From the NCBI RefSeq assembly GCF_034424215.1, contig NZ_CP139960.1:5146001-5210000 (forward strand): a stretch of DNA of 64,000 bases, given 5' to 3'. The notes beneath the pieces were generated by a model. The model was not told where the DNA came from. It made no database searches and worked only from the letters and a program-made list of their open reading frames with translations. This DNA comes from Niabella yanshanensis (GTDB lineage: Bacteria > Bacteroidota > Bacteroidia > Chitinophagales > Chitinophagaceae). The position numbers and the translations under genes are program-made. Positions 25,205 through 34,735 of this stretch are shown here, piece by piece (the stretch's first letter is position 1; every line of letters begins with the position of its first letter).

Positions 25205-25870
25205 TTAAATAATACCCATTTTAATACAGTGCGCTATTAGCTGCTCGTTGGTGGAAAAGTCGAATGCCTCTTTCATCAATTTTAGTCGTTTTTCAATACT
25301 GCTTTTGCCAGCTGGCTGCATATTATTTTCACTTAAATAATCCGAAATCTCTTGCTGTCGTTTACCTTCGGTCATCTGGGTTATTATAGCAATATCAGTT
25401 TCGGTAAATTCATAAGCATTTTTTTGTTTTGCCTGCCGTATCAACTCTACCGGGAAATGTCGTTGGTTATTAATAATCTTTTCTATGGCCTTCTTAAGTT
25501 CTTCAATGTCACTTCGTCCCTTTGATACATACCCATCAATATCCTGTTTTTTAAACAATATTTCTATAACTGAAGGCTTACCTGTAGCTGAAAATACCAG
25601 TATTTTCAGATCAGGTTGCGCTTTTCTTACAGCGGCAATAAGCGCTTCGCCGGTAGAAATTTTTTGTTGTCGGTGATCCTGGTCAAAAGACAGATCAGTG
25701 ATCAGCAGGTCATAAGACGTTCCGGCCTTTAGGGCCATTTGTATTTTTTGCAGCGCATCATCACAATGGTAAACATAATCCGGGTCAAGAACTCCGAACG
25801 CTTCAAGTGTTTTCTGTACGGAGATGTTGGCGCTTTGATAATCTTCTGCTATCAGTACTTTCTTTATCAT
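25205..25870 (-). CDS. Response regulator with helix-turn-helix output (LuxR-like)
   Basis: A 221-residue regulator. Receiver features are VLIAEDYQSAN at the start, the acceptor Asp in YDLLITDLSFDQD, ILVFSATGKPS and the conserved Lys in DGYVSKG. The C-terminal segment (FTETDIAIITQMTEGKRQQEISDYL, with the helix-turn-helix ending IEKRLKLM) resembles a LuxR/NarL output domain with an unusual insertion before the recognition helix. The start lies two bases after the stop of the upstream TPR kinase, so the two form one operon. Confidence 0.88.
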   Translation of the reverse strand: MIKKVLIAEDYQSANISVQKTLEAFGVLDPDYVYHCDDALQKIQMALKAGTSYDLLITDLSFDQDHRQQKISTGEALIAAVRKAQPDLKILVFSATGKPSVIEILFKKQDIDGYVSKGRSDIEELKKAIEKIINNQRHFPVELIRQAKQKNAYEFTETDIAIITQMTEGKRQQEISDYLSENNMQPAGKSSIEKRLKLMKEAFDFSTNEQLIAHCIKMGII

Positions 25871-25872
25871 AT

Positions 25873-27534
25873 TTATTTAGCAATTGGAATAAAAATACGG
25901 ACTTTCAATCCCGGTATTGTTTTATCAAAAATAATGCGGCCCCCAATATCTTTGATACGGGTTTCCGTATTTCTTAATCCATTGCCATAAAGCGTTCTAG
26001 GAGGAAGCCCGATGCCATCATCGGTGTATAGTACTTCTACTATATTTTCCTTTTGCATAAATTTCAGCACAACATTGCTGGCCGAGCTATGCTTTTTCAT
26101 ATTGGTCATTAACTCCTCTATGGTAATACTCAGCTCTTCTCTAGCTACCGGTGTCATTTTTTCCCATATCTGCTGAGAGTTGCCGACACTTGCCACTTTT
26201 ACAGTATTGCTGGCAAATGATTCCAACAGTTCCGAAACAGATTGTTGAAAATCCTGGTTATTTTTTCCTGGCTCGTTATAAGATATATCACGTGATTGTT
26301 TATATACTGTATTTAATTTATAGAGCAGTACATTTTTTTCCGGAAGCCCCTTGTGTTCAACTTCCGACATAATACGATAAACCTTGTTGGCAACCTTATC
26401 ATGTACTTTCTTGGACATTTGTAATTGTTGTTCCCGTATGGCTTGCTGTTTGCGCTTCCGGTACCAAATAAATCCAATAACGGCTCCAATTCCTAAAACA
26501 ATAGAAATTACCCGCTGCCATACCACGCGAAGCTTGGTTTCCGCATTTTCCTTTTGGAGCTTCAGCTTATCTGTTTTATGTTTTTCTGTTTCATACCGGA
26601 TCGTGGCAAATTGATTCTTTGCTTTATTCCGAGCAGTTTCTATGCTGTCGCTTAAAGACCGATATTTTGTGAAATATTCTTTTACTTCGCCTAAAGTGCT
26701 CACAGGTATAAGCATGGCAAGCGCGTTTTTTATTTCATCCGGACTATTAAGGTTTTTAGTTATCTTATAGAGTTTCTTTGCATAGAATAAAGCAGAGTCT
26801 GGTCGGGTAGGTCTGTAGTAGTGAGTTAAATGTATATAGCTTGCACTTAGCCCCCAGTCATCTTTTTCATTTTTCCAAATACGTATAGCATTCCAGATTT
26901 CTGGTGCTGCGTTGTAACTGGAATCTTTCAGCCATTTTGCATAAGCAAAGTTGGATAGGATCCTGGCATATTCTTGAGGTATATTTTTATCACTATTTAA
27001 GATTGAGTTATAAACTTTAATTGCTAAATCATACTGCTCTTCGTCTTTATAAGTTGCCCCTTTATTATTAAGGCGTACTAATTTGAAAGAAGTATCTGTT
27101 GAAAAATCTATTGCTAAATCATAATAATGAATAGCTTCTTGATAGTTTTTTAAGTTTCGACTATTTTTACCCAATTCGTTATAAGCAGACGCAATACGTT
27201 CGTGATGCTGCTCATTTTGCTCATCTAAAATTTTCAATGCCTTGAACAATAATTCCTGGCTGCCAAAATAGTCTCCTACATCGTGTAAAATAATGCCCAT
27301 GCAAGTATATGCTCCACTAACTAAAAGACTGTCTTTGGAGTTGGTGACTATTTTGTTGAAGTAATAAAACGCTGAATCGTCGTTCTTTTTACGAAGTGAA
27401 TCAGCATAGAGATAGATGTAGTAGTTTTCCGTATAATTGGAGATTTCATCTGTTTTAATATTTCTTTTCCGGTTGCAAGCCAGAAGACAACAAGCTATAA
27501 AAAGCAGGTATATAAAAAAGGGCAATTTCGTCAC
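25873..27534 (-). CDS. TPR-containing sensor histidine kinase, lipoprotein-like N terminus
   Basis: A 553-residue kinase. The N terminus (IYLLFIACCLLACNRKRN) reads as a lipobox signal. A periplasmic array of tetratricopeptide repeats follows (ASAYNELGKNSRNLKNYQEA; YDLAIKVYNSILN) to about residue 300, then a coiled coil and one membrane segment (VISIVLGIGAVIGFIWYRKR). The DHp region (QMSKKVHDKVANKVYRIMSE) carries the candidate phospho-His in KVHDKV. The HATPase has ELSITIEELMTNMKKHSSA, DDGIGL and GNGLRNTE. This is the family of Bacteroidota kinases that pairs with LuxR-type regulators, encoded here directly downstream. The signal sensed is unknown; the small peptide gene upstream is a candidate partner. 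Confidence 0.9.
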   Translation of the reverse strand: MTKLPFFIYLLFIACCLLACNRKRNIKTDEISNYTENYYIYLYADSLRKKNDDSAFYYFNKIVTNSKDSLLVSGAYTCMGIILHDVGDYFGSQELLFKALKILDEQNEQHHERIASAYNELGKNSRNLKNYQEAIHYYDLAIDFSTDTSFKLVRLNNKGATYKDEEQYDLAIKVYNSILNSDKNIPQEYARILSNFAYAKWLKDSSYNAAPEIWNAIRIWKNEKDDWGLSASYIHLTHYYRPTRPDSALFYAKKLYKITKNLNSPDEIKNALAMLIPVSTLGEVKEYFTKYRSLSDSIETARNKAKNQFATIRYETEKHKTDKLKLQKENAETKLRVVWQRVISIVLGIGAVIGFIWYRKRKQQAIREQQLQMSKKVHDKVANKVYRIMSEVEHKGLPEKNVLLYKLNTVYKQSRDISYNEPGKNNQDFQQSVSELLESFASNTVKVASVGNSQQIWEKMTPVAREELSITIEELMTNMKKHSSASNVVLKFMQKENIVEVLYTDDGIGLPPRTLYGNGLRNTETRIKDIGGRIIFDKTIPGLKVRIFIPIAK

Positions 27535-27592
27535 ATCAGTTATTTGTTCCCTAAAAATAAGTAAATCCCACTTTTAAAACTGTCGCATAAAG

Positions 27593-27621
27593 AAAAAGGT
27601 AAGACTAGCTCTTACCTTTTT
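27593..27621. terminator. Bidirectional terminator hairpin
   Basis: An 11-bp perfect stem, AAAAAGGTAAG with CTTACCTTTTT, around the loop ACTAGCT. It sits 13 bases after the stop of the minus-strand small peptide gene and upstream of the kinase gene, so it should separate these two transcripts. The A- and T-rich flanks make it usable in both directions. Confidence 0.85.
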
Positions 27622-27633
27622 GTGAGTGACACA

Positions 27634-27834
27634 TTATGAACCGGGTGGCGGTGGTGGGGGCGGTGGGGGTGGTGTGTGTCCTGATTCTCCGCCTCCTCCT
27701 TCACCTCCATCATCTTCTGTTTCATCGCCCATGGTAGTGACCTGTCCATTATTGGGGATGTGATTGTGAATATGTCCGTTATGGTTACATGCTGGACATG
27801 TCGCCAGCAGTAACGCCAGAATGAATTCTAACAT
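27634..27834 (-). CDS. Small exported peptide: hydrophobic leader, Cys/His cluster, acidic Gly stretch, poly-proline tail
   Basis: A 66-residue protein. A short hydrophobic leader (MLEFILALLLATC) is followed by CPACNHNGHIHNH, which packs two Cys and four His into 13 residues. Then come an Asp/Glu and Gly-rich segment and ten consecutive prolines before a final Gly-Ser. The gene has its own hairpin terminator 13 bases after the stop, which argues that it is real despite its low complexity. It lies about 100 bases upstream of the TPR kinase on the same strand. A metal-binding or signalling peptide is possible; function is unknown. Confidence 0.6.
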   Translation of the reverse strand: MLEFILALLLATCPACNHNGHIHNHIPNNGQVTTMGDETEDDGGEGGGGESGHTPPPPPPPPPPGS

Positions 27835-28098
27835 TTGTTGTTGTTTTAAAAATTTGAAAAATGTTCCGACCCCGCAGGGGCACGGTTTTTTGAAATGGCG
27901 TAAGAAGCGCTTCCTACTGCCGAAGGGAAGGGAGTGGAGAATAGATTGCGGAAGCTTTTAAACGCTTCCCAAACCGCTTATGGGCAACCACTTTCTATTG
28001 TTCCGGGAAAAGAGATACTGTACAGTTGGCTTTTAGCTAAGAAGCCCGATCGCTTTCGAAAACAAAGATAGATCGACGTAATGGGTTGGTTAGTAAAT
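27835..28098. other. Intergenic region with a CCCC-GCA-GGGG mini-hairpin
   Basis: About 260 bases between the divergent small peptide gene and the membrane protein gene at 28201. The only structure seen is the tight hairpin CCCCGCAGGGG at about 27871-27881. No open frame here looks like protein. Confidence 0.4.
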
Positions 28099-28175
28099 GA
28101 TTCCGGTGATTCCGGCAATTCCGCTCATTCCGTTTTAAATTCCGAATGGGCATACGGAATTCCGTAAATTCCGTT
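28099..28175. repeat. Degenerate 9-bp ATTCCG tandem repeat
   Basis: Seven ATTCCG units lie in about 77 bases, the first four at an exact 9-base period (GATTCCGGT, GATTCCGGC, AATTCCGCT, CATTCCGTT). They are followed by more widely spaced AATTCCG copies and one inverted CGGAATTCCG palindrome. The array ends about 25 bases before the ATG at 28201, inside the expected promoter or 5' leader of that gene. It is too short and uniform for CRISPR and has no spacers. Confidence 0.75.
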
Positions 28176-28200
28176 AGCTTTATTGTATAACCTTCGTAAA

Positions 28201-29373
28201 ATGTATTATGCTGATTACAAAAAGCAGGTACTGCAGGAATACAAGAACAAACTGGCTGCAGACCCAAGTCTACTAAACCTGAGCCAGCCCTCGCCGGCAA
28301 AGCTTAGAAAGGAATGTGCAATTGTATATGATGAACGATACCACCGGAAAGATGAGGGAACCTTGAGAACGTTTTTCGAAGCTGCAGTAGAACCGTCGAA
28401 GTTTTTAAAGGTGATTGAGAATTTTTCGATCGACAAATTCAGGCCACTGGTTAAGTATATTAAAGAACCCGATATTGAAACCGCGTTTAAAAATGTTGAG
28501 CTGTTGGCCTGGCTGATCAATTTTGAACCTCGTCCCCTGGAACATTGGAGGAAAACATCGGGCTCAACAAAAGAAGCCCTGGCTGAAAAAGAGCTGGATG
28601 GCGATAATGATGCTGGCGTTATACTGCCAGCAGAAGAGGCCCAGGCAGCTGTAGCTGCTCAACCTTTTGTTGAAGGAGCTCTGGTTGAAAAAGAGCAGGA
28701 GGTAAAAAATGTTGATGATGGGACAGAACAAAAAGTGAACAATCAACCGACTGTAGCAGCTCAGCCAACTGCAGAAGGGCTGGTTGAAAAGCAGGAACAA
28801 ATCAAGAAAGATAACGGCGATCCTGTACGAATAACGGAAACTAAACCCCTTATTGAGACAAGCCCTGGTGTGAAAGAAGCTCGACCTACCACTGTTGAAG
28901 CCTTCGACACTTCATTCGTACCATTGGTATCCTCCTCGCCTAAAAAAAGTGGCATTCATAAAAAAACATGGAATGGTGTAATGCTGGCGCTATTGCTCTC
29001 CGCTACGGGGATAATTATTTATCAGGCAAAAAACAACGATGTCATTGATATGCCTATGAGCAGTAGTGCTGCTGGTAAACAGTGCATGTATTGGACAGGC
29101 GATCATTACGAAGCAGTACCCTGCAGCCGTAAAATAGATGATGTAAGTGTCATTGCACTAGATACCGTTAAGCTGAGAAGGTTTAAAAAAATCACCCGTC
29201 CTGATACTATTACAGAAAATGATATCGGCCGGGTTTGGTACACCAGGATAAATAAACAGCTGGAGTTTTATACTGCTTACGACAATCATCCCACCCAGCC
29301 ACAGTTCCGCTTAAAGCCAATAACCGGGTATATTATAGATAAGTATATTCAGCATCCGAAGCTGTCCGAATAA
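28201..29373 (+). CDS. Uncharacterised membrane protein with N-terminal helical domain and C-terminal extracytoplasmic domain
   Basis: A 390-residue protein starting at the ATG at 28201. The first 125 residues form a charged helical domain (YADYKKQVLQEYKNKL; PAKLRKECAIVYDERYHRKD; NVELLAWLINFEPRP). A low-complexity Glu/Ala/Val linker with near-repeats (EKEQEVKNVDDG, EKQEQIKKDNGD) follows. One membrane helix lies at about 259-276 (GVMLALLLSATGIIIYQA). The last 100 residues form a compact domain (CMYWTGDHYEAVPC, DTVKLRRFKKITRPDTIT, RLKPITGYIIDKYI). The two ends look like separate conserved modules, but I recognise neither. It lies 283 bases upstream of the GTPase operon, same strand, and may be a membrane partner of it. 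Confidence 0.75.
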   Translation: MYYADYKKQVLQEYKNKLAADPSLLNLSQPSPAKLRKECAIVYDERYHRKDEGTLRTFFEAAVEPSKFLKVIENFSIDKFRPLVKYIKEPDIETAFKNVELLAWLINFEPRPLEHWRKTSGSTKEALAEKELDGDNDAGVILPAEEAQAAVAAQPFVEGALVEKEQEVKNVDDGTEQKVNNQPTVAAQPTAEGLVEKQEQIKKDNGDPVRITETKPLIETSPGVKEARPTTVEAFDTSFVPLVSSSPKKSGIHKKTWNGVMLALLLSATGIIIYQAKNNDVIDMPMSSSAAGKQCMYWTGDHYEAVPCSRKIDDVSVIALDTVKLRRFKKITRPDTITENDIGRVWYTRINKQLEFYTAYDNHPTQPQFRLKPITGYIIDKYIQHPKLSE

Positions 29374-29656
29374 AGCTGCCGGTAATGAAGTGATAAGAAA
29401 ACTATTGCTCTCGGTTCATACCTTCTCCAAATATTTTTATTAGGTTTTTATGTTTACGGTTTTCCGTAAAACCGTCTTCACGGGCTGCTATAGATTTGTG
29501 CTTACAACGCAATTGGTACAAACAAGCAGTGAAATGCTCTTATGATAAAAGATTCATTACTTATTACCCCCAAAGAACTGTTTACATAATTGATTAAACA
29601 ATGTCATGGTTTGAAATACCGGCAGCCCCTATTATCTCTTACCAATAATTAACAAC

Positions 29657-30685
29657 ATGAACCGTAAAATTACCGCCACCGATTTTTTTCTCGCTGTACT
29701 CGCGCTCTTACTCATCAGCGTAAGCTTTTACCAAACCTGGTTGGGCCTACAACAGATATTTGGCGCGGCGTCTTTCGTTATTGCACTAGTGCTTTCCTTA
29801 CTGCTGCTTTTTCTCTGCTGGATGATCAGGGCGGCGAAGATGGAACGCCGTTCCTCATCCAGCCTGGTATGGATCTATATTTTTATAGCATCCTTCTGCT
29901 TTATAGCCAATTTTAATGCACTGTATACCCGGTTTATGCGAACCGATATTTATACTACCGAGCTGCGTGATATCAACGAGCGGTTTAATGGCCTTGAAAC
30001 AGATGTGCAGTCGAAACTGAGCTATAAGTATAATAAAGAAACCACGCAGAACATCGAGATAAAAAAGAAACAATTGATAGAGCAGATCAAAGACCCCGGT
30101 AATAAGGGGATCGGAGAAAGAGCACAGGCCTTAATAAGGGATATAGAAAAACTGACGGGGCAAAAAATTGACCTGCTTACACCTATCCGTAATGATTACG
30201 AAGACCTGGCGCAGAGAATGGGTAACCAGATAGACAATATGATCTCCGACCTTTCCCCTGAAGAACAGGCTCTTAAAAATGATATTAATAATGCCGTATT
30301 AAAATGGAACAGGCGGATACAAGACCTGCTTTTATTGCCCAAGAAAGAGAAAGATGACCTTTCTCAAGGATTAATTGACGAGTCTTTAGCCGAATTTAAT
30401 AAGTTGGGTGTAAGAGCGCATACCGTACTAGGGGAAAACAAATTTAAATTCGAACCGGTTTTTTCTAAAACCCAGAACGTAGGGAAAATAGGTTATGCCT
30501 TTGACCATGCTGTTAAGAATTTTGGGATGTACCAGTTTGTGGTGCTGGCGGGCTGTATTCTTTTAGATTTTGTGATTGTGATCATCATCTTACTGGTTAC
30601 CAATCCTGATCATAAAAAAAGCGACAGTAATGGCTCTGTGTTTAATAATAAGCGCAGCGGTAAAACTCTTATCCCTAACAACTAA
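29657..30685 (+). CDS. Four-helix membrane protein with long helical central domain (GTPase operon, first gene)
   Basis: A 342-residue protein. Three membrane segments lie at about residues 6-28, 38-57 and 69-89. A charged helical stretch of about 190 residues follows (FNGLETDVQSKLSYKYNKET; IERAQ-like helices; DLSPEEQALKNDINNAVLKW). A fourth membrane segment lies at 292-315 (GMYQFVVLAGCILLDFVIVI) with a short basic tail. No catalytic motif is visible. The start of the GTPase gene is eight bases after its stop, so they are co-transcribed. The layout suggests a membrane scaffold or channel-like subunit with a coiled domain on one side of the membrane. Confidence 0.82.
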   Translation: MNRKITATDFFLAVLALLLISVSFYQTWLGLQQIFGAASFVIALVLSLLLLFLCWMIRAAKMERRSSSSLVWIYIFIASFCFIANFNALYTRFMRTDIYTTELRDINERFNGLETDVQSKLSYKYNKETTQNIEIKKKQLIEQIKDPGNKGIGERAQALIRDIEKLTGQKIDLLTPIRNDYEDLAQRMGNQIDNMISDLSPEEQALKNDINNAVLKWNRRIQDLLLLPKKEKDDLSQGLIDESLAEFNKLGVRAHTVLGENKFKFEPVFSKTQNVGKIGYAFDHAVKNFGMYQFVVLAGCILLDFVIVIIILLVTNPDHKKSDSNGSVFNNKRSGKTLIPNN

Positions 30686-30693
30686 TTGAAACA

Positions 30694-31620
30694 ATGAACA
30701 ACGAAAATTTAGAACCCCTGGCTTTTGATAACGAAGAGCGGTTACAACCCCTGTCGTTTGAACCGCAAAAGCCTGTAACAGAGGATGACTTTGTGCCTCT
30801 TACCAAAACCAATACAACAGAAATAAAAAGTAAGGATAGCAATTTTGTATTCTTCTTTGGTACTTCAAAGTCGGGCAAATCGGTTATACTCTCATCCATG
30901 TTGTACTATCTGAGCTCACAGGCCGGTGTTTTGCGGCCTAAGATTGGTACGCCCAATACCAGAGAAGCACAGGTGTTACTATCCAATTTTTTTGAAAATA
31001 TCAGGCAGGGGATTTTGCCTGGTCGTACCACGCGGGACCAGGTAACACGCCTGGACCTGGTTTTTGAGCCGAATAACCGTTCCAAAAAAGTAGTGCCGAT
31101 CAACCTTACTTTCCTGGAAACATCGGGGGAGAATCACAATGAAATAAAAAGGGGCGGGTCTTATCACAGCAGTATAGATTCGTATATAAGCGCTAATATA
31201 CCGCTTACTTTTATTATTGTAACGGGCTATGAGTCGGCTCATAAAGAAGATACCGTTATTAACGAGTTTTTAGATGAGCTGGAACGGAAGGGTAAAAATT
31301 TGAAGGCGATCAACGTGATCCTGGTGGTTTCCAAGTGGGACAAATCGGGTAAGATGAACGTGGTTAACGCTGATGAACTGGATCAGTTCATTAATGAACG
31401 TCTAAGCAGAACCAGCCAGCGTATTGATACCTATGGTTTAAGTAAAACCTATTATACTATTGGCGATATTCAAAGCGGCGGGGGCGAAGAGAGGATCGGC
31501 CTGCTAAGCCTGGCAACCGCCGAAATTTTGTCAAAATGGCTATACCATAGTATAGTTGGATATGACCTGGACTATGAAGGTACTTTTTGGGAACGCATTA
31601 AATTTAGCCTGGTAAAATAA
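30694..31620 (+). CDS. P-loop GTPase of the operon (TRAFAC-like)
   Basis: A 308-residue soluble nucleotide-binding protein. The Walker A/G1 motif is GTSKSGKS at residues 56-63 after a hydrophobic strand (NFVFFFG). A G3-like motif ETSG at 142-145 follows strand INLTFL, with Glu in place of the usual Asp. The G4-like motif SKWD at 213-216 follows strand AINVILVV and fits guanine recognition. The first 45 residues are acidic and contain a repeated PLAFDNEE/PLSFEPQK phrase. It sits between two membrane-protein genes and overlaps the next gene by one base. GTP as substrate is inferred from the SKWD motif; ATP is not excluded. Confidence 0.82.
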   Translation: MNNENLEPLAFDNEERLQPLSFEPQKPVTEDDFVPLTKTNTTEIKSKDSNFVFFFGTSKSGKSVILSSMLYYLSSQAGVLRPKIGTPNTREAQVLLSNFFENIRQGILPGRTTRDQVTRLDLVFEPNNRSKKVVPINLTFLETSGENHNEIKRGGSYHSSIDSYISANIPLTFIIVTGYESAHKEDTVINEFLDELERKGKNLKAINVILVVSKWDKSGKMNVVNADELDQFINERLSRTSQRIDTYGLSKTYYTIGDIQSGGGEERIGLLSLATAEILSKWLYHSIVGYDLDYEGTFWERIKFSLVK

Positions 31621-32843
31621 TGAACCGTCATGTTAATATTATAGCCTTCGGCACTTTTGGAAACCCGAATGGTTTTAAGCAAAGTTTCTTTAATGCCGGG
31701 ACCGACAGCGTACTGGTAAAAAATATTAAAACCTTTGATTTAAAAACAGACGCGATCCGGCTCTTCCCCAACAGCAGGCTTTATGCTATCCGTAAACAAT
31801 CAGTAAATGGCAGCAACCTGGTTGCCTATACGGTGTATAGTTTTGCCAAAGAACAGGGTTCCGAAAGGGGAGGTACTTTTATCGGCTCCAGCCTTCTTTT
31901 TTCTGATAAGGTTGCCGTGGAAGCTATAACGGTGAACTGCCTGAATGAATTTCATGATTATCTCGAAAAAAAGAATGTACAGCAGGGTGTTATCCAGGTA
32001 ACTCATTCTGACCAGTTTAAAGTTAGAACCCCCAAAGACTTGGCAAAGATCGATTTTAACTTAAAAGAAACCGGAGACCTGAATATGATGCCGGTAAGTG
32101 ACCGGAACTTGGTGGTTTTTTGCGAGATCAATCCTAATAAACTGAAAGAGTACTTTAGAAAAACACTTGAATTACTAAATCTTTATGATACCATTTATTT
32201 TACCAGCAGCCCCGAAGTAGCCAGATTTGTCAATGACCGCGGGCTTTTTACGTTGGTGCAGGATGTAGCGGGCAAGCGTGACCTGGATTATGAACTTGAA
32301 AAGCTAAAAGAAGAAAAGACGCGTCGGATGCAGGCTTTTGTTGCTGAGTTGGAAGAGGAAAAGCAAAAAATAGAAAAAGAGCAAATAGCGCTGGCGGAGC
32401 AGTACCAAAGCTGGCTGGCCGAAAATGAAAGACAGCACGAGGAAAACGCGAAGCGAATTGAAGCGGCTAAAATACAGTCGACACATACCGGAACCGTTTA
32501 TAGTCATTACCTGGAAAAAATAATTGAATCTGTCAACCGTTTAAACGCCCTACAACAGCCATATCAGGTAAGACGTTGGTTAAATGAACATAAGCGGCAT
32601 TTTATTGAACAGGTTCAACAACAACAGCTGCCGCAGGCATTAAGATCGGTTTCCACACCTGCCCATGCTACTGTCAAAACCAGTGCAACCGTTATGCGAG
32701 TGCCAAATTATAGTGAGTATGGAATGAAAAGCAAACACGCAGAGGAGGGATTTAATATATACAAAGTACTGACGTTCGTACTTATTGTTCTATTGTTAGC
32801 TGGTGCGGCTTTTGCTTGTTTTTTTATGGAATTCAATTTTTAA
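31620..32843 (+). CDS. GTPase-associated coiled-coil protein with C-terminal membrane anchor
   Basis: A 407-residue protein whose ATG overlaps the GTPase stop (TAATG). The N-terminal 200 residues form a globular alpha/beta domain (IIAFGTFGNPNGFKQSFF; SRLYAIRKQSVNGSNLVAYT; ERGGTFIGSSLLF). It is reminiscent of the N-terminal domain of GTPase-associated proteins in conflict systems, though I cannot prove that. A Glu/Lys-rich coiled coil covers about 222-290, and a single membrane helix at 381-402 (VLTFVLIVLLLAGAAFACFF) ends the protein. Tail anchoring places the globular part in the cytoplasm next to the GTPase. No catalytic motif is seen. Confidence 0.8.
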   Translation: MNRHVNIIAFGTFGNPNGFKQSFFNAGTDSVLVKNIKTFDLKTDAIRLFPNSRLYAIRKQSVNGSNLVAYTVYSFAKEQGSERGGTFIGSSLLFSDKVAVEAITVNCLNEFHDYLEKKNVQQGVIQVTHSDQFKVRTPKDLAKIDFNLKETGDLNMMPVSDRNLVVFCEINPNKLKEYFRKTLELLNLYDTIYFTSSPEVARFVNDRGLFTLVQDVAGKRDLDYELEKLKEEKTRRMQAFVAELEEEKQKIEKEQIALAEQYQSWLAENERQHEENAKRIEAAKIQSTHTGTVYSHYLEKIIESVNRLNALQQPYQVRRWLNEHKRHFIEQVQQQQLPQALRSVSTPAHATVKTSATVMRVPNYSEYGMKSKHAEEGFNIYKVLTFVLIVLLLAGAAFACFFMEFNF

Positions 32844-32911: not shown

Positions 32912-33484
32912 ATGAAGGGAAGCTGGTATATAAGCTGTTTGCAAATTGCTTCTTTTTTTACGAGCCTTTTGTTAGATTGTGCACATTCGGAAGAAAAGTT
33001 GTATGAAAATATTTATACGGATACCGCTGCTCCCTTTATCCATAGTTCCGTTGCTTCCTCACCGCACAAAGTAATCGGCATAAAAGATGGCGATACTTTC
33101 GTCGTGCTGATTAACGGAAAAGAGCAGGTGGTAAGGCTGGCGCATATCGACTGCCCTGAGAAAAAGCAACCTTTTGGCGCAAAGGCAAAGGAATTTGTTT
33201 CGCAACAGTCTTTTGGAATGCAGGTGTCGCTGGTGCACGGTTATAAATATGATCGTAACCGGAGACTGATTGCGGAAGTTATTTTAGCCGATGGCCGGAA
33301 CTTAAATAAGGAGCTGGTGAAAAACGGGCTGGCCTGGCATTTTAAAAAATACTCTGATGATACTACCTATGCTGTGCTGGAAAATAAAGCCCGTAAGGCG
33401 AGGGTAGGTGTTTGGGGTGACCACAATCCCATAGCACCCTGGGAATGGCGACGATCAAAGCACACAGCTAATACTGCCCGTTAA
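32912..33484 (+). CDS. Secreted SNase-like (thermonuclease) nuclease
   Basis: A 190-residue protein with an N-terminal hydrophobic leader, then a staphylococcal-nuclease OB-fold domain from about residue 50. Conserved positions are KDGDTFVV (calcium-binding Asp), VRLAHIDCPE with the catalytic-type Arg, KEFVSQQSFG, YDRNRRLIAEV with the second Arg, and NGLAWHF. The enzyme would cut single-stranded nucleic acid or RNA outside the cytoplasmic membrane. It starts 68 bases after the membrane-anchored GTPase partner and is codirectional, so it may share the transcript, although SNase genes are also common on their own. Confidence 0.88.
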   Translation: MKGSWYISCLQIASFFTSLLLDCAHSEEKLYENIYTDTAAPFIHSSVASSPHKVIGIKDGDTFVVLINGKEQVVRLAHIDCPEKKQPFGAKAKEFVSQQSFGMQVSLVHGYKYDRNRRLIAEVILADGRNLNKELVKNGLAWHFKKYSDDTTYAVLENKARKARVGVWGDHNPIAPWEWRRSKHTANTAR

Positions 33485-33619
33485 CATATCTGAGGAGGCG
33501 ATAAAAATGCGCTCAATACGGTTTCCCGTAAATAACAGAATGAAGGATGTATTATTTTAGCTCTAACAGGGAGAAGCCTTTTTACTGGTAGCTCTTTGCT
33601 CTCAATAAAAACTACGCAA

Positions 33620-34735
33620 ATGGAAAATGATCTAAAGCTTAAACTGGAACAACTGCATCAGCGAGTAGATGCACTCAAAGACCAGATCAATACCGAGGAA
33701 GCTACCAAGAACGCTTTTGTGATGCCCTTTATACAAATTATAGGGTACGATATCTTTAATCCTACCGAAGTAATCCCGGAATTTATCTCCGATATTGGCA
33801 CCAAAAAAGGGGAGAAGATCGACTATGTCATCAAAAAAGATGGTGAGCCCATATTGATAATTGAATGTAAACATTGGAAAGAGAAGGCCGATGCGCACAA
33901 CTCTCAGCTGCACCGGTACTTTCATGTTTCGAAATCCCGTTTCGGTGTTTTAACCAACGGACATGTCTATAATTTTTATGCCGACCTGGAGCGTCCCAAT
34001 ATTATGGACGATAAACCATTTTTTACACTGGATATTGCCAATCTGAAAGAATCTAACCTGAAGATCCTGGAGAATTTTACAAAACAGGGCTATAATCTGG
34101 ATAGTATCCTCGATTCTGCCGAGGCCTTAAAGTATATTAAAGCTATTCGTAGTGAATTTGAAAAAGAATTACAGGAGCCCTCTGATGAGCTGGTAAAACT
34201 TCTGGTTAATCGCTTTTTTGAAAAGCCATTAACAGCGTCGCGGCTGAGCACTTTTAGAGAATATGCGCGGAGGGCCATATCCAATTCCATTAATGAATCC
34301 ATCAGCTACCGGCTAAAAAATGCCCTCAGTATGAATGATAAGATTCCCTCCCAGCAGCAAGAAGAGACTATATTACCAATTGATGAAAATATTGAAACTG
34401 TAAAGGCGATTACCACGGAAGAAGAGGTAGAAGGCTCGCAGATTGTAAAAGCTATTTTAAGAGAGGTAGTGCCTTCAGCCCGTATTGCGTTCAGAGATAC
34501 CCAATCTTATTTCGGAGTATTGCTGGATGATAATAACCGTAAGCCCCTGGCACGGCTACATTTTAATTTTTCTAAAAAATACCTGGAACTGTTTCATAAT
34601 GGTAAAGACAATGGTGAGAAAAAACTACTGGAATCATTGGATGATATCTATAAATACAGGAAGGAACTTTTAGCTACTGTTGAAAAGTATCAACAAAATT
34701 ACCTTGTAACAGAATCCTCTAATACTGTATCATGA
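33620..34735 (+). CDS. PD-(D/E)xK protein of the type I R-subunit N-terminal / type IV restriction-like family
   Basis: A 371-residue protein with no signal peptide; the ATG at 33620 is preferred over one eight codons upstream. A helical start (LEQLHQRVDALKDQI) leads into NAFVMPFIQIIGYDIFNPTE. The nuclease core has the Asp of KIDYVI and the Glu-x-Lys of LIIECKHW, i.e. a PD-(D/E)xK active site as in HSDR_N-type domains. FGVLTNGHVYNFYADLE follows. The C-terminal half is helical with a small beta domain (VLLDDNNRKPLARLHF). Such stand-alone proteins are annotated as predicted restriction-like endonucleases; a methylase or helicase partner is absent here. It overlaps the next gene by four bases (ATGA). 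Confidence 0.85.
   Translation: MENDLKLKLEQLHQRVDALKDQINTEEATKNAFVMPFIQIIGYDIFNPTEVIPEFISDIGTKKGEKIDYVIKKDGEPILIIECKHWKEKADAHNSQLHRYFHVSKSRFGVLTNGHVYNFYADLERPNIMDDKPFFTLDIANLKESNLKILENFTKQGYNLDSILDSAEALKYIKAIRSEFEKELQEPSDELVKLLVNRFFEKPLTASRLSTFREYARRAISNSINESISYRLKNALSMNDKIPSQQQEETILPIDENIETVKAITTEEEVEGSQIVKAILREVVPSARIAFRDTQSYFGVLLDDNNRKPLARLHFNFSKKYLELFHNGKDNGEKKLLESLDDIYKYRKELLATVEKYQQNYLVTESSNTVS

Follow-up and report, generated by a model that had tools for sequence, protein, structure and literature searches.

A putative membrane-embedded GTPase cassette of Bacteroidota and its distant kinship with the DO-GTPases of predicted conflict systems

DO-GTPases belong to predicted nucleoside triphosphate (NTP)-dependent conflict systems (Kaur et al. 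2020, PMC7159879). As the main text of that paper describes it, different NTPase switches of this conflict network share effectors, and the systems include a branch that combines tubulin with HSP70. A DO-GTPase family protein is also present in some PspFABC envelope-stress operons, for which the relevant section of PMC11237479 proposes a role in membrane stress. Here, we examined a 64,000-nucleotide stretch of the one-contig, 5.54-Mb genome of Niabella yanshanensis (NZ_CP139960.1, positions 5,146,001 to 5,210,000; hereafter, the window), in which a first-pass annotation had singled out four codirectional genes, a to d, as a membrane-linked GTPase system. The coordinates of these genes, the motifs GTSKSGKS, ETSG, and SKWD in the GTPase c, the 8-base gap between b and c, and the one-base overlap of c and d were all confirmed on the sequence (Table 1). 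We somewhat favor a reading in which b, c, and d form a membrane-embedded GTPase switch cassette related to, but diverged from, the DO-GTPase conflict systems, and a conflict function is likely.

Profile and motif comparisons show that c is distantly related to the DO-GTPases. Pfam DO-GTPase1 was weakly matched by 21 of 23 c members (best E 7.5e-6), and no other family matched as many. Two remote relatives pass Pfam cut-offs: L058, where c and d are paired and preceded by a b-like gene, scores 27.1 bits against DO-GTPase1 (cut-off 27), and L088 scores 33.2 bits against DO-GTPase2. For comparison, we assembled sets from the two DO-GTPases of eleven plasmid GAP1-N1 operons, 10 of which are GASH-annotated, with two Bacteroidota members added to one set. 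Aligned to these two sets with hhalign, a c profile of 41 rows that includes L058 gave E 6.5e-11 and 1.5e-8, the competition from non-DO GTPase families coming from the Pfam scan and not from an hhalign control. Over the 41 rows, the P-loop and the E at the Walker B position are present throughout (39 SGE, 2 AGG at the latter), and SKWD is present in 39. Judged by these rows, c carries a complete GTPase motif set, and its SGE and [ST][KA]WD signatures are common to many DO-GTPases: where c has ETSGE and SKWD, the closer set has D-x-[SA]-GE ([DE]x[SAG]GE) in 10 of 13 members and [ST]AWD in 10 of 13, and the other set has [DE]x[SAG]GE in 5 of 11 and [ST]AWD in 0 of 11. Outside the DO-GTPases, the PADLOC model mad8 of the MADS system weakly matched c residues 47-231 (E 7.7e-5), and none of the other mad models matched among six proteins scanned.

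A motif search for other GTPase families nearby found two frames in the 43 loci described below, neither of which adjoins c. Separately, the remote relative L088 lies in a further membrane GTPase set of the same phylum (L088:4643-11306), consisting of a subtilase, a membrane protein, the DO-GTPase2 protein, and a 600-residue partner with an RPG motif and a transmembrane (TM) segment.

We collected homologous loci with a three-sequence alignment of c, which was scanned against 84,980 species represented by one genome each and returned 42 loci, or 43 with the window; the scan relies on two short peptide patterns and therefore reaches close relatives only. When the open frames up to 10 kb on each side were clustered, c and d were found in 43 of 43 loci and b in 41, bearing out the coupling that had been claimed for these three genes; in the two loci without b (L011 and L049), the contig ends just before c. 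Any cluster besides b, c, and d is confined to at most 10 of the 43 loci. The spacing is also preserved, with 3 to 23 bases between b and c in 34 of 39 loci and a c-d overlap of 1 or 4 bases in 33 of the 40 measured loci, window included. Because of these overlaps and the joint retention of b, c, and d across Bacteroidota and one Chlorobiaceae bin, the grouping goes beyond chance. The pairwise identities of the three proteins correlate as well (Spearman 0.67-0.82, 37 loci). The upstream neighbors vary by lineage and, we presume, include ordinary genes such as purL and a topoisomerase pair. On the evidence of gene order and shared descent, b-c-d is a self-contained, co-inherited accessory cassette.

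The distribution of this cassette is patchy. At the genus level, c is present in 3 of 17 genomes, so that the genes do not constitute a universally conserved core cluster, the condition under which the first-pass annotation would have been refuted; two of the three carriers are records that are 72 and 83% complete and have several stops inside c. At the family level, d is found in 4 of 195 genomes. One of these carriers (G171, L008:9620-12259) encodes a lone d homologue of 879 residues that ends in a stretch resembling the conserved ectodomain discussed below, with no GTPase among the listed frames within about 10 kb. Across the phylum, d was counted in 7 of 296 genomes, leaving out G475 and G362, which match in the coiled coil alone, and G285, where a 210-residue frame matches in coiled coil and tail, and c in 10 of 395, counting the remote relatives G268, G407, and G345.

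Inheritance was examined in a quick tree of b and c (37 rows). Its 23 Chryseobacterium rows are split over two clades, one of which also holds Epilithonimonas, Rhodonellum, and Flavobacteriales bins, and a single Chryseobacterium clade is rejected (approximately unbiased test, p 1.7e-11). The cassette probably entered Chryseobacterium more than once, although the two clades may instead be old paralogues with losses. Between the Chryseobacterium of L034 and the window genome, c is 64% and b 57% identical, and PheT, the single yardstick gene, is 43% identical; PurL was rejected as a housekeeping yardstick because it is not an orthologue. Alignments, distances, and tree were built without fragments shorter than 300 residues for b, 280 for c, and 380 for d, a filter that removes L041, L044, and L049 and partly L011, L029, and L039. 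Alignments A2, A3, and A4 hold 23, 22, and 21 rows picked from about 40. Two records call for comment in their own right. In L049/L004, a bin whose title says Alphaproteobacteria but which the genome set assigns to the family of the window, c is only 181 residues long and lacks its middle part. In L050, named Cellulophaga, b and c are almost identical to those of Flectobacillus longus (L043), and the record is probably mislabeled.

Both partners of the GTPase are predicted membrane proteins. Membrane segments, called by eye from hydrophobic stretches, number one in a, four in b, and one, at the end, in d, and the structural models agree with an all-helical b and a tail helix in d, in keeping with the earlier claim of three membrane-bound products. 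The b model (mean predicted local distance difference test score 74, predicted template modeling score 0.49) is helical throughout, with an extended helical stretch located between TM3 and TM4. The 20 b homologues are 57-81% identical to the window protein. No sequence family matched b over a cut-off, and the best match in a fold comparison, at E 0.53, was above the threshold of 0.001. In the d model, the N-terminal domain is mixed alpha/beta, and a long coiled coil and a disordered stretch separate it from the tail helix. Of the three proteins, d changes fastest, with a median identity over 37 loci of 50% in its first 215 residues compared to 67% for b and 69% for c. When the fold of d was compared with PDB and viral structures, no match reached E 0.001; two Rag-type complexes (E 0.13; probabilities 0.51 and 0.54) and TagF (E 0.035) are sub-threshold leads only.

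What is new here is the extracytoplasmic side of the system, as predicted from d and its downstream neighbors. A profile built from 8 d proteins detected a conserved domain past the membrane helix in 18 of 38 full-length d proteins, and a gene for a lipoprotein aspartyl protease directly follows d in six of the 43 loci. These proteases have an intact DTGA motif and a lipobox, and two of the six, when scanned, matched gag-asp_proteas (E 3e-14 and 1.6e-15). Among the 37 loci with at least 700 bases past d, the protease occurs only where d has the ectodomain (6/18 with and 0/19 without; Fisher p 0.008, uncorrected for kinship). All six carry the leader C-x-HPESK-x-YER. A near copy, CNHPESKDYKR, is found on the staphylococcal-nuclease-like (SNase) protein of L038, and weaker forms are found on the SNases of L044 (CAHPEAKLYEN) and of the window; the SNases of L041 and L102 and the L086 protease have no leader of this type. 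That HPESK is a general Bacteroidota motif was considered and rejected: the DNA pattern occurred in 1 of 296 genomes, in a frame that is not lipoprotein-like. In the variant locus L086, b and c are followed by a 380-residue gene in the place of d, without detectable similarity to d, then a DUF805 gene, and the aspartyl protease at the end. The nuclease cluster occurs in 4 of the 43 loci, and most loci show none of protease, nuclease, RHS gene, or subtilase, the last of which was seen in L088. A periplasmic output of the b-c-d system may be read from these neighbors.

Beyond the cassette loci, the protease profile matched 14 of 395 genomes, nine of them weakly (E 4e-8 or higher). The strongest matches besides L086 are in G436 and G572, where the protease closes gene sets with tubulin-like proteins (L133:1489-8472 and L134:5250-8414; E 0.0022 and 1.9e-4 for the tubulin match). 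These operons end in the aspartyl-protease subfamily of the b-c-d relatives and in this compare with the tubulin and HSP70 branch set out in the main text of PMC7159879, although their membership of that branch is left unproven because the tubulin matches stay under the Pfam cut-offs. They differ from b-c-d in having another NTPase and no b, c, or d. In G572, the protease copy is only 113 residues long, the tubulin-like gene is split over two frames, and the stretch also holds an OmpA-like protein (E 0.0047) and a ZorA-like membrane protein (E 1.1e-7). As an observation in its own right, the tubulin-like gene sets of L133 and L134 are possibly an undescribed switch system. In the genus g139, all three loci have a gene for an RHS-repeat protein ahead of b, at a distance of 71 to 81 bases (L089:2-5101, L090:5227-10563, and L091:169-3792, the last being the same locus as L046); the proteins are 81-92% alike, and one record is titled Chlorobiaceae. 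The protease subfamily common to tubulin-like operons and the RHS gene upstream of b can be taken as hints of conflict.

Compared with the DO-GTPase/GAP1 systems of PMC7159879, as far as its main text presents them, b-c-d is similar in its related GTPase, its tight operon, its accessory distribution, and the order of helical protein, GTPase, and downstream partner; effector enzymes including peptidases may be a further likeness, and those systems have a membrane-linked subset. To the DO-GTPase of PspFABC operons, b-c-d is linked by the GTPase family, with the membrane-stress role that the relevant section of PMC11237479 proposes there. An exported aspartyl protease sets the b-c-d relatives apart in that the main text of PMC7159879 does not contain the words aspartyl, retropepsin, or aspartic protease. 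We found no published name for the b-c-d cassette in literature searches. The view that this accessory, patchy, membrane-linked GTPase module has no recognized housekeeping counterpart is upheld.

A possible mechanism would involve docking of c on the cytoplasmic domain of d, which would serve as regulator or effector platform. A signal sensed either by d, which evolves fast, or by b through its helical domain would alter the nucleotide state of c, and the b-d membrane assembly would then change shape and relay this change across the membrane. Output beyond the membrane could come from an altered b, acting as a pore or clamp, or from an activated exported enzyme. The window d is a short form with no ectodomain, and no protease follows it; here, the output would therefore be b or, perhaps, the neighboring lipoprotein nuclease. 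Judged by its gene content, the window copy is a reduced version whose output is the least clear. More tentatively, and to our minds rather doubtfully, one might go further and regard b-c-d as a distinct Bacteroidota membrane class with a cytoplasmic trigger and an extracytoplasmic weapon, in which a GTP-driven b-d rearrangement frees or activates the HPESK-tagged lipoprotein aspartyl protease (sometimes a nuclease), an effector type in common with tubulin-like operons.

Several observations weigh against assigning b-c-d to the conflict systems. The window c itself scores 19.3 bits against Pfam DO-GTPase1, under the cut-off of 27, and no second full c gene was found in the 43 loci, the window genome giving a single match. 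No GASH match appeared among the 5 families for window b or among the 25 families listed, of 46, for 21 b proteins. Aligned with GAP1-N1 by hhalign, d scores 12 to 13 (15.8 with longer pieces), and 32 unrelated control families range from 7.9 to 18.2. Several alignments, including those with L058, L008, and L088, could not be separated from these controls, and d was not retained as a GAP1-N homologue. No GAP1 family was found for window d in the Pfam scan or among the 25 families listed, of 75, for 22 d proteins, and d and GAP1 proteins have in common only a similarly placed RxG motif, present in 39 of 40 of the former and 12 of 12 of the latter. In Chryseobacterium, the cassette often stands with recurring chromosomal neighbors, unlike a defense island, and IMG/VR, PLSDB, and INPHARED gave no cassette relatives at the settings used. 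In the window and 36 others of the 43 loci, no such protease turned up; three of the 36 end inside d or less than 200 bases past it. Strong protease matches also occur in G363, inside a 928-residue protein, and in G443, with no b-c-d or tubulin-like gene in the stretch listed. A blastp search with two RHS proteins found a relative in L046 itself and nowhere else among the 43 loci; the three RHS genes, closely related and all from the same genus, therefore represent one event.

The proposed kinship with conflict systems consequently stands for c, through Pfam, hhalign, and motifs, and is not confirmed for the N-terminal domain of d, whose likeness to GTPase-associated proteins (GAP1-N) is at the level of unrelated controls. 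The cassette has one c-type GTPase, unlike the GAP1-N1 systems with two DO-GTPase genes, one carrying a zinc ribbon; b is a four-TM protein without a GASH match, where theirs is an all-helical GASH protein; and d is not demonstrably GAP1. FNIII was covered by Pfam scans only. By these comparisons, b-c-d is better read as a variant of the DO-GTPase type than as a GAP1-N1 member; neither the two-GTPase nor the GASH feature was found.

The same neighbors and conservation patterns bear on what the cassette does. The main rival to the conflict reading is an envelope-stress or membrane-homeostasis switch, in which a GTPase with membrane partners senses membrane damage and tunes exported proteolysis. 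The PspFABC precedent described in part of PMC11237479, the two membrane proteins of the module, the lipoprotein protease of some relatives, the high conservation of b and c, and the recurring neighbors in Chryseobacterium all suit such a role, which we nevertheless consider unlikely in view of the patchy presence, the probable repeated acquisition, the occurrence of the protease subfamily in operons with tubulin-like proteins, and the RHS neighbors in one genus. A role as helper of an inter-bacterial toxin or surface system, with b-c-d anchoring, exporting, or immunizing against RHS-type proteins or exported lipoprotein enzymes, would account for the RHS gene close to b in g139 and for the exported nuclease or protease that adjoins d in other loci. 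We regard it as improbable: the blastp search places the RHS relatives in 1 of 43 loci, and the other upstream neighbors inspected look mutually unrelated.

The four-gene complex a-b-c-d of the first-pass annotation seems very improbable. In the window, gene a is codirectional with the cassette and stands 283 bases ahead of b, and two Niabella records (L041 and L044) also have an a-like frame before b; these and the window are the only loci with the gene a cluster, 3 of 43. Relatives of a occur in 15 of 147 family genomes, all 15 of which were among the 195 screened for d, and only the window's own genome has d. Moreover, L102 has gene a followed 35 bases on by an SNase gene and no b-c-d. On these grounds, a was rejected as a system member and is better seen as a separate family, 14 of its 15 family carriers being without d. 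The simplest reading of the window is that b-c-d occupies a place between gene a and the nuclease gene. A divergent gene resembling the TPR gene of the window adjoins a in 6 of 7 loci inspected by eye, of 14 fetched; the gene a family beside this TPR gene, seen at window positions 25205-29373 and in L102, L103, L104, L106, L109, and L112, looks like an accessory locus of its own.

A functional link is possible between b-c-d and the SNase-domain lipoprotein encoded downstream of d in the window, whose leader resembles the HPESK leader of the aspartyl protease. On the other flank lie a response-regulator-like gene (29.4 bits, cut-off 30.2) and the TPR protein gene, both on the minus strand. The description of the surroundings as an accessory block with nucleases fits loosely: SNase and HSDR_N genes do flank the cassette, but ordinary genes, such as those for glycoside hydrolases and an AlkZ-like protein, stand farther out.

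Table 1. Genes of the cassette and its immediate neighbors, in window positions
Feature	Position	Strand	Description
Gene a	28204-29373	+	389 residues from ATG, alternative TTG start at 28183 possible; helical N-terminal domain, one TM, conserved extracytoplasmic domain; neighbor, outside the module
Gene b	29657-30685	+	342 residues; all-helical membrane protein, four TM by eye
Gene c	30694-31620	+	308-residue P-loop GTPase; GTSKSGKS (G1), ETSGE (Walker B-like), SKWD (G4)
Gene d	31620-32843	+	407 residues; globular N-terminal domain ~1-215, coiled coil 222-309, tail TM helix 380-404
SNase-domain lipoprotein gene	32912-33484	+	staphylococcal-nuclease-like; downstream of d; leader CAHSEEKLYEN
HSDR_N-domain protein gene	33596-34735		beyond the SNase gene

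If the kinship proposed here is right, the predicted GTPase conflict network would gain a compact, membrane-integral three-gene form, present in 23 Chryseobacterium records and scattered relatives. The cassette is small enough to be cloned whole, which opens the DO-GTPase hypothesis to direct testing. Should the exported protease be the output, the system would constitute an executioner pathway leading from cytoplasm to periplasm, for which the main text of PMC7159879 describes no counterpart, and such switches would have a new way of acting outside the inner membrane.

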